This document shows positions 27,537-32,993 of a DNA stretch of 32,993 bases, piece after piece (the stretch's first letter is position 1; each line of letters starts with the position of its first letter). Made by a program: the position numbers and the translations under genes. This stretch comes from Actinomycetota bacterium (lineage in GTDB: Bacteria; Actinomycetota; Actinomycetes; S36-B12; UBA10799). The notes beneath the pieces were generated by a model. That model searched no databases. It worked only from the letters and a program-made list of their open reading frames with translations, and was not told the origin of the DNA. The stretch is taken from assembly GCA_963169225.1 (NCBI GenBank), contig CAUJDH010000013.1, forward strand, positions 1 to 32,993, written 5' to 3'.

Positions 27537-29180
<1,644 letters not shown>

Positions 29181-29188
29181 GGTTTCCG

Positions 29189-29980
29189 TTAGTTCAATCC
29201 TTGACTCAGAATGGCCAATGCTGCTTGACCTTGTTGTCTATGTGTCTCGGACAGAGGCTTCCAATACGGGGAGCTAGCGGGAAGTTGCCTAGCCAATATA
29301 AGGACTCGGCTTCGATCTGACCCGGTGAAGCTTTTGCGGTCGGCTCTAGGATCCTCGATGCAGGCTAGAAGGACAGCAGCGTCTGTTAGATGTCGTCCTG
29401 GGTCACGTGAATCTGCTCTATATGCGGCGGCCTTAAGCAGTGCGGCCCCGAAAGCGGATGGAACGCTCAGAGTTGTAATGCGCCCAGGGTTGATTTCTAG
29501 TTCCGCATTGATAGTTCGGTTGAGAGCCTGTGTTCCACCTTCAATTGCAACCATTTTCCTTCCTTCAAGTTTCTCAACTTGTCGCGGTGCGGAATGGTCG
29601 GCAATGAGTACATCGACAATGTCGAACGGTGTAGCAACAATAGAGTGAACTCCGGCTTTGGATTTGGCGCGACGATATCGGTGTGCGGTTTCGTTCTTGT
29701 CGTCGAGAGAAGGAGTGAGTTCGTATCCGAGTCTCTTGAGAACCTTTGCGGCTTGTGTAGGTCGCCCACGTCGAGTTTCAATGTGCAAAACCACATCGAC
29801 ATCGTTAGTGGGGCGAAGGCTCGCAACACCGTTATGTATGGCGTGCAATTGAGTCATGAGACCGCCCACCAGGGTCCAATTTTGGTGGGCAAATGCCGCT
29901 TCGATTTCTGCCACATTTGGCCATGGATCTAACCAGCCACCCGGTGGCGAATCGACCGAAATTGTTGGACGACTACTCAT
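29189..29980 (-). CDS. Nucleotidyltransferase-fold protein, AbiEii/MenT-like (putative toxin)
   Basis: This is a 263-residue protein from the ATG at 29980, which overlaps the stop of the upstream helix-turn-helix gene by eight bases. The DNA-polymerase-beta-type nucleotidyltransferase core is visible. LVGGLMTQLHAIH has GG at 39-40, and TNDVDVVL has Asp60 and Asp62. A third carboxylate, Asp123, is in DIVDVLIAD. ALLKAAAYRADSRDPGRHLTD (in parts: ALLKAAAYRA, DPGRHLTDAAVLL) resembles the K-x-R/D helix of AbiEii proteins. Size, order and overlap fit the second gene of AbiE/MenAT toxin-antitoxin pairs, whose toxins modify tRNA or GTP-linked targets. Toxicity is inference; a standalone sugar or RNA nucleotidyltransferase remains possible. 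Confidence 0.7.
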   Translation of the reverse strand: MSSRPTISVDSPPGGWLDPWPNVAEIEAAFAHQNWTLVGGLMTQLHAIHNGVASLRPTNDVDVVLHIETRRGRPTQAAKVLKRLGYELTPSLDDKNETAHRYRRAKSKAGVHSIVATPFDIVDVLIADHSAPRQVEKLEGRKMVAIEGGTQALNRTINAELEINPGRITTLSVPSAFGAALLKAAAYRADSRDPGRHLTDAAVLLACIEDPRADRKSFTGSDRSRVLILARQLPASSPYWKPLSETHRQQGQAALAILSQGLN

Positions 29981-30626
29981 GGAAGTTTTCCAAGGCAGTC
30001 GCCAGGGCGTTGAGGCCTGCGTTCCGTTCGCGCATGTCAAGCGATTCCGCAAGGTCAAGTGCAGTTGCGATCACAATGTTCTTGCCGTTGATCAAGGTTG
30101 ATTCACTAATCACTCGAAGTGTGACGTTCCCCCTTCTTGTTTCAATGAGTGAAAATTGTTCCACGAGCCGACCTAGGTGGGTTTCTGAGATGTAACCAGA
30201 AACATCTTGTTGTTGAACGAGTCCCAGCAACTGTTCCGCTTGTGACGAATCGATGATTGCAGAACGAATTTCATCTAAGGAGCTGGCGTGCGCAGTGAAT
30301 TCTTGTCTGGCAGCTCGGTTCCGGGTGAGGGCAACAAGTTCCTCTGCGTTTATTGACCTGAGTCGCTTGTGAAGTCGGGAAAGCTGGCTAGCGCCGAGGC
30401 GTGACGCATCTTGTTCTGACAGTAGATCGATGGCTGCCCAAGCAGTTTCCTGGGACCAAGCTCGAGCCCGGTTGGCATTGCGCTTAGCAAGGAACTGTTC
30501 GACAGAAGTAGCATCGACCACACCGCGAGCGGCGTAGTCAATCTCACCTTCGAGGGCTAGGCGGCGAACTTGCTTGGTCGTCACCCCAAGACGAGCAGCG
30601 GCAGCCGACACCTCCATAAGCTCCAT
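29973..30626 (-). CDS. Helix-turn-helix protein, partner of the nucleotidyltransferase (putative antitoxin)
   Basis: The product is 217 residues from the ATG at 30626; 30617 (ATG, GGAG close upstream) and 30662 (TTG) are alternatives. The N-terminus is an excisionase/MerR-like winged helix: VSAAAARLGVTTKQVRRLALEG, then a wing and VVDATSVEQFLAKR. The rest is mainly helical (SQETAWAAIDLLSEQD, LSRLHKRLRSINAEELV) and ends in a mixed region with IETRRGNVTLRVISES before LDLAESLDMRERN. I do not recognise that C-terminal part. Gene order, overlap with the nucleotidyltransferase, and an inverted repeat at the promoter suggest an autoregulating antitoxin. Confidence 0.65.
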   Translation of the reverse strand: MELMEVSAAAARLGVTTKQVRRLALEGEIDYAARGVVDATSVEQFLAKRNANRARAWSQETAWAAIDLLSEQDASRLGASQLSRLHKRLRSINAEELVALTRNRAARQEFTAHASSLDEIRSAIIDSSQAEQLLGLVQQQDVSGYISETHLGRLVEQFSLIETRRGNVTLRVISESTLINGKNIVIATALDLAESLDMRERNAGLNALATALENFHE

Positions 30627-30627
30627 A

Positions 30628-30659
30628 ACAGATAGAGTCTCATAAGGGACATTATCTGT
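30628..30659. promoter_or_regulatory. Inverted repeat at the start of the HTH/nucleotidyltransferase module
   Basis: ACAGATA (30628-30634) and TATCTGT (30653-30659) are a perfect 7-base inverted repeat with an 18-base spacer, directly in front of the ATG at 30626. A GATAAT hexamer on the minus strand (30656-30651) could be the -10 box, so a protein bound here would block the promoter. If translation begins at the TTG at 30662 the repeat lies inside the coding region instead. Confidence 0.45.
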
Positions 30660-30708
30660 CAAACCAAGTAACGCACTTCACGGGAACAAAAAGCCACGCG
30701 GTTTAGTT

Positions 30709-30758
30709 ACCTATAGGTGACCCCGAGGGGTGGTTACTGGTTAGAGTGGGGAATCTAA
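30709..30758. promoter_or_regulatory. Palindromes upstream of clpC
   Basis: ACCTATAGGT (30709-30718) is a perfect 10-base palindrome, extended with one mismatched pair to GT and AC. Further on, TTAGA (30741-30745) and TCTAA (30754-30758) flank an 8-base spacer, 18 bases before the clpC ATG. I do not see the GTTCGC/GCG-type site expected for ClgR, the usual clpC activator in actinobacteria. Which element controls clpC is unknown. Confidence 0.35.
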
Positions 30759-30776
30759 ACGAAACGGAGTGTGCTT

Positions 30777-32993
<2,217 letters not shown>

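Follow-up and report, generated by a model that had tools for sequence, protein, structure and literature searches.

MenT toxins modify tRNAs by nucleotide addition at the acceptor end, and MenT1 requires T39, D41, K137, and D152 (PMC10435456). The published MenT antitoxins are structurally unrelated, and each of them seems to cause phosphorylation at a single Ser/Thr of the active site; with MenA1 and with MenA3, two proteins that share no relationship, T39 or S78 becomes phosphorylated (PMC11375011). In AbiEii of the AbiE type IV toxin-antitoxin (TA) system, motif III is KLxAaxxR, of which K173 and R180 are needed, and motif IV is +DxxD (PMC3985639). We analyzed a helix-turn-helix (HTH) gene and an adjacent nucleotidyltransferase (NTase) gene in the window (the whole stretch of DNA under analysis, 32,993 nt). 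Sequence comparisons indicate that the two genes in all likelihood form a mobile TA cassette with an NTase toxin and a two-domain HTH antitoxin-repressor, best filed as a variant of the DUF1814-type NTase TA kind. No published description of the pair was found in a literature search of open-access full text.

The initial annotation described two minus-strand genes overlapping by eight bases, and both open reading frames and the overlap were confirmed. The span that it gave for the module (29973-30659) covers the HTH gene only. The features of the locus are as follows:

29189..29980, minus strand, NTase gene, predicted toxin (ORF, 263 aa)
29973..30626, minus strand, HTH gene, predicted antitoxin and autorepressor (likely ATG start, 217 aa)
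29973-30662, minus strand, HTH gene with the alternative start, an in-frame TTG at 30662 (229 aa)
29973..29980, minus strand, 8-bp overlap ATGAGTAG of the NTase start and the HTH stop (ORF positions)
30626..30661, unstranded, predicted operator, imperfect 36-bp inverted repeat, TGACAGATAATGTCCC TTAT GAGACTCTATCTGTTA
30471..30620, minus strand, Xis/MerR-type winged helix, HTH residues 15-64 in TTG numbering (model, Foldseek, HTH_17)
29976..30467, minus strand, C-terminal alpha/beta domain, HTH residues 66-229, predicted to be neutralizing (model, Foldseek)
29861..29866, minus strand, NTase motif I, G39-G40 (alignment)
29795..29815, minus strand, NTase motif II, R56-P-T58-N-D60-V-D62, with T58 corresponding to MenT1 T39 and MenT3 S78 (PMC10435456, PMC11375011)
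29612..29614, minus strand, third Asp of the NTase, D123 (alignment)
29432..29434, minus strand, NTase motif III Lys, K183, corresponding to MenT1 K137 by motif order
29381..29395, minus strand, NTase motif IV variant, R196-H197-L-T-D200, with MenT1 D152 as the counterpart by motif order

As read from translations, one flank of the pair carries coaX, a GNAT-like gene, a pirin gene, and pgm, and the other carries clpC, in agreement with the location between coaX and clpC given earlier. The GC content of the pair is 52%, and that of the flanks is 57-59%. Most relatives keep an overlap of 8 or 4 bp between the HTH and NTase genes, and the overlap suggests translational coupling of the two genes. 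In two members of the family (G005 and G006), the counterpart of 27537-30777 consists of pgm and clpC as divergent neighbors, and the pair is absent. The orientation of pgm in the window is opposite to that in these two genomes, indicating that the interval has been rearranged; because pgm is inverted there, the pgm-clpC interval of these close relatives was rejected as a clean empty site. A separate AbiEii (PF08843) match above the cut-off is located elsewhere in the window's own genome (G000 contig C45, 3864-4448).

The active site of the NTase is strongly constrained. Among 92 homologues, position 58 is T or S in 92/92 and D60 and D62 are kept in 92/92, while GG39-40 is found in 91/92, R56 in 89/92, K183 in 90/92, and D200 in 91/92. 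The nucleotidyltransferase core originally read as GG...DxD with a third Asp is thus present as GG...RxTxDxD, followed by D123, the Lys, and the C-terminal Asp. T58, D60, K183, and D200 match the MenT active-site set of T/S, D, K, and D, the last two by motif order; the importance of these residues has been demonstrated in MenT1 and MenT3 (PMC10435456, PMC11375011). A PDB search with the NTase family profile gave MenT1 (8an4) as the best sequence match (E 0.0009), in an alignment that covers T58-D62, the equivalence of K183 and D200 coming from the order of the motifs. The pair resembles MenAT1 and MenAT3 of Mycobacterium tuberculosis in GG, T/S-x-D-x-D, and the downstream Lys and Asp in equal order, in having the antitoxin gene first, and in MenT1 being the best solved sequence match, but the MenT1 chain has 196 aa and the NTase here has 263 aa.

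The locus also resembles AbiE, which is bicistronic with the antitoxin gene first, encodes a winged helix followed by a C-terminal domain, has inverted repeats in its promoter, and occurs on mobile DNA (PMC3985639). The NTase shares with AbiEii the hG[G/S] motif, an Arg four residues before DxD, the motif III Lys, and the motif IV Asp (PMC3985639). Motifs I and II of AbiEii (hG[G/S]...DhD, with Arg before DxD) are matched with a longer spacing, as the distance from GG to DxD is 15 in AbiEii and 19 in the NTase here (PMC3985639), but the family matches neither the motif III nor the motif IV consensus. In motif III, K183 and an aromatic residue at +4 are kept, whereas the Arg of AbiEii is replaced by Asp190 (PMC3985639), and position +7 is Asp in 78 of the 92 homologues. 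In motif IV, R-H-x-x-D, present in 91/92 homologues, stands in place of +DxxD, the first Asp being replaced (PMC3985639). The Pfam AbiEii profile (PF08843) scores 17.1 bits on the window NTase, under the gathering score of 22.5, and 16 of 75 homologues match it with E values no higher than 0.01 (best 4.4e-06). In a profile-profile comparison, the core alone aligned with Actinobacterial AbiEii proteins (probability 46-50). Because PF08843 is below its cut-off and motifs III and IV are altered, we did not accept membership in AbiEii; the earlier description "AbiEii/MenT-like" holds for the catalytic core, for which MenT1 is the best PDB profile match, but not for family membership.

The AlphaFold2 model of the NTase (mean pLDDT 93) gave weak Foldseek matches to DNA polymerase beta-type proteins (E 0.03, TM about 0.23), and neither a MenT nor an AbiEii structure was among the best 50 of 227 matches. 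As the Foldseek matches are weak and include no MenT within these best 50, we claim a predicted NTase core with a MenT/AbiEii-type active site and not a shared whole fold. Searches of NCBIfam, PADLOC, PHROGs, and the PDB with the single NTase and HTH proteins returned nothing specific, and weak matches such as RNA12, VirB5, terminase small subunit, and HalB were attributed to chance or to the HTH alone. The PADLOC profile PDC-M21B, a candidate defense protein, matches 14 of 75 NTases weakly (best E 2.2e-4), and it has no match in four pair-holding genomes at E 0.01.

The AlphaFold2 model of the HTH protein has a mean pLDDT of 94. Its N-terminal domain matches mycobacteriophage Xis, BldC, RacA, and phage Xis/MerR-like proteins in Foldseek; HTH_17 is matched by 18/18 HTH homologues and scores 17.3 bits on the window protein (cut-off 27). 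The N-terminal winged helix recognized in the initial annotation is accordingly of the Xis/MerR type by model, Foldseek, and HTH_17. Mycobacteriophage Xis, BldC, and RacA share this winged helix but, unlike the HTH protein, have neither the C-terminal domain nor an NTase partner. The doubt voiced earlier over the C-terminal two-thirds was justified, since Foldseek gave no convincing match to this domain among solved or viral structures. AbiEi and COG5340 proteins differ from the HTH protein, in that AbiEi has its own C-terminal domain after the winged helix, whereas here the winged helix is of the Xis type and AbiEi_4 is below its cut-off (13.1 bits vs 25). The AbiEi structure 6y8q compares to the HTH model with a Foldseek probability of 0.16 and a TM of about 0.2, which is not significant. 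The MenA antitoxins are also different, MenA1 being a helical protein of 68 aa and MenA3 belonging to COG5340 (PMC10435456, PMC11375011), while the antitoxin here would be a protein of 217-229 aa in which an unmatched C-terminal domain follows a Xis-type winged helix. By the sequence and model tests run, the pair falls outside both AbiE and MenAT. We lean, with some reserve, towards the HTH protein as a third structural antitoxin class for DUF1814-type NTase toxins, with a Xis/MerR winged helix and an unmatched C-terminal domain, which would neutralize an NTase of a separate branch (R-H-x-x-D) within a mobile cassette that has its own operator.

Four distant HTH relatives (L162, L166, L168, and L169, in genomes G300, G282, G309, and G218) match both domains, and a small gene and a long methyltransferase/helicase-like gene, by reading, lie downstream of them. 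No NTase was found near these four relatives, which we count against the TA reading. Because these two-domain proteins occur without an NTase, the fold of the C-terminal domain may be more widely used in regulation and may also serve a regulator outside the TA module.

The stretch from the TTG to the next in-frame ATG (30626) is spanned by the 36-bp inverted repeat, whose whole sequence is TGACAGATAATGTCCCTTATGAGACTCTATCTGTTA. Since the conserved repeat (30661-30626) occupies this stretch, the ATG at 30626 is the likely HTH start. The repeat had been described as perfect, and its position directly before the HTH start was upheld, but perfect pairing is limited to the outer 7 bp (ACAGATA/TATCTGT), with 12 positions pairing over the 16-bp half-sites. 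Half-sites matching at 12/16 or more near the HTH start were found at 34/95 loci vs 0.36% of shuffles, a count over related, not independent, loci that is evidence of conservation and not a probability. The outer word ACAGATA/TATCTGT is common to many relatives, and different words occupy this place in plasmid members. As judged from this recurrence, the palindrome near the HTH start is not due to chance, and the conserved repeat together with the predicted DNA-binding domain leads us to infer that the HTH protein autoregulates its expression through the repeat. A second palindrome (GTTACCTATAGGTGAC) at 30706-30721, 56-71 bp before clpC, may be part of the clpC promoter and not of the HTH/NTase pair.

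We surveyed how consistently the two genes occur together. The NTase is present in 9 of 148 relatives, and an HTH homologue is located upstream at 10 of 11 loci. A GTDB genome scan gave 187 NTase relatives, of which the best 80 were assessed for neighbors; all 80 are from Actinomycetota, and the HTH gene is directly upstream of the NTase in 78 of these 80, in named genomes, which bears out the co-occurrence of the two genes. The two NTases without an HTH gene (L075 and L109) begin at model positions 45 and 54, and motif I is absent from them. Because the scan was made with NTase motifs, it undercounts broken NTases. Within a sample spread evenly over the class, the NTase profile was found in 33/395 genomes, some by fragments alone, and the HTH profile in 57/395, many by a short HTH stretch alone; in the phylum survey, 17/396 genomes match. 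Several MAG contigs titled Bifidobacterium breve (L063, L066, L079, L090, and L109) match genomes of the window's order, and L063 is part of G129:C195; the titles of such contigs look mislabelled.

The adjacent, co-inherited HTH/NTase pair moves as a unit. In 242 locus pairs with a DNA match over the module, the median start of the match is 27 bp ahead of the HTH domain, placing the boundary at the operator, and it usually ends at the NTase end, extending more than 300 bp beyond the module in 9. The expectation that the genes move together is thus supported, as DNA similarity between hosts is usually confined to the module. Nocardioides albus and Occultella gossypii, which belong to different families, share 79% identity confined to the module. 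The NTase tree follows host family in part, with 23 changes compared to a minimum of 16 and 44.8 on shuffling.

A search of 2.9 million viral contigs found one relative. The locus L015 (MT835669.1), a GenBank 'Bacteriophage sp.' scaffold, contains the pair with a frameshifted NTase; its neighbors, by translations, are ABC transporter, ArsR-like, and channel genes, and the scaffold looks like a bacterial chromosome or island. With one phage-labelled record bearing chromosomal-looking genes and one match in the viral contigs, phage carriage was rejected. The viral search also bears on the idea that the NTase is an effector, such as an abortive-infection gene responding to a phage cue, which the HTH protein controls by repressing transcription alone, with no protein neutralization. 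The strongly conserved operator, the ability of AbiE to abort phage infection (PMC3985639), and the weak PDC-M21B matches in 14/75 NTases are in keeping with such an effector. However, one relative in 2.9 million viral contigs gives no direct phage link, strict pairing and a large conserved C-terminal domain exceed the needs of a repressor, and the T/S58 kept in 92/92 homologues is the residue phosphorylated in response to MenA antitoxins, making this explanation improbable.

Asymmetric decay of the two genes points to their roles. Among plasmid records, 38 carry the NTase and 39 carry the HTH gene, the extra one retaining a 37-codon NTase remnant. Each of the 39 HTH copies aligns unbroken across 80% or more of the query, whereas truncation or a frameshift affects the NTase in 7 records representing about 5 separate events (CP054208 and CP088909; CP063236 and CP044283; CP083975; CP017423; CP130956), with a transposase gene downstream of the broken NTase in CP063236. 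A broken HTH gene with an intact NTase was never found in these 39 HTH and 38 NTase plasmid records. A broken NTase beside an intact HTH gene also occurs at L086, L107, and L015, and the class survey of 395 genomes revealed NTase remnants beside an intact HTH gene in G444, G424, and G190. The sole case with a frameshifted HTH gene and an open NTase frame is L052, which we count against the TA reading. L094 was rejected as a broken antitoxin, as one-base losses in both genes relative to a sister sequence are probable sequencing errors. Loss of a toxin with the antitoxin kept is tolerable, and the opposite is costly. Because the NTase is often broken beside an intact HTH gene, and on plasmids never the reverse, the NTase is predicted to be the toxin of the pair.

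The same pattern weighs on two other explanations. NTases act as antitoxins in HEPN-MNT (PMC7641770), and with such reversed roles the NTase would be an antidote that modifies a toxic HTH partner. However, truncated or frameshifted NTases are found beside intact HTH genes, a state that should kill the cell if the HTH protein were toxic; searches of Pfam, NCBIfam, PADLOC, PHROGs, and the PDB found no recognizable toxin domain in it, and the HTH-first order and the operator fit a repressor, so that reversed roles are very unlikely. The NTase might instead be a non-toxic housekeeping or small-molecule-modifying enzyme (e.g., of the antibiotic-modifying type) with its own regulator, as the NTase superfamily is broad and the catalytic core alone is assigned. 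This is highly improbable given the sporadic distribution, the compact mobile unit, plasmid carriage, asymmetric decay, and MenT1 as the closest PDB sequence match.

The initial proposal of a two-gene TA module is therefore retained on the basis of co-occurrence, module-limited similarity, NTase-only loss, the operator, and the active site, but without membership in AbiE or MenAT. In the TA cassette, the NTase toxin would most likely act like MenT toxins, halting translation through nucleotide addition at tRNA acceptor ends; the tRNA target, an analogy taken by itself, is tentative, with slightly less than an even chance of being right. The N-terminal winged helix of the HTH protein would bind the 36-bp inverted repeat and repress the operon, and the C-terminal domain would silence the NTase, either by binding it or by promoting autophosphorylation of T58. 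Neutralization and this division of roles between the HTH domains are presumed. If T58 is the phospho-acceptor, antitoxin-driven autophosphorylation would extend to a third, unrelated antitoxin fold. A widespread pair with the Ser/Thr kept and another antitoxin domain would provide a test of the generality of the phosphorylation mechanism.

The pair presumably serves to hold plasmids or other mobile DNA. The plasmid hosts are Rhodococcus, Arthrobacter, Pseudarthrobacter, Paenarthrobacter, Glutamicibacter, Bifidobacterium, and Tsukamurella, and the plasmid genes are in almost every case labelled 'hypothetical protein' or 'helix-turn-helix domain-containing protein'; AbiEii/AbiGii toxin family is the name given to one Tsukamurella NTase. 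Because the pair is common on plasmids, including those of Rhodococcus, Arthrobacter, and Bifidobacterium, where its annotation is almost always hypothetical, we regard it as a candidate for plasmid maintenance in strains used by industry. The pair adjoins a RAMP/VWA/ParA-like cluster on Rhodococcus pLP2 (L013) and a ParA gene on Tsukamurella pTpau01 (L019).
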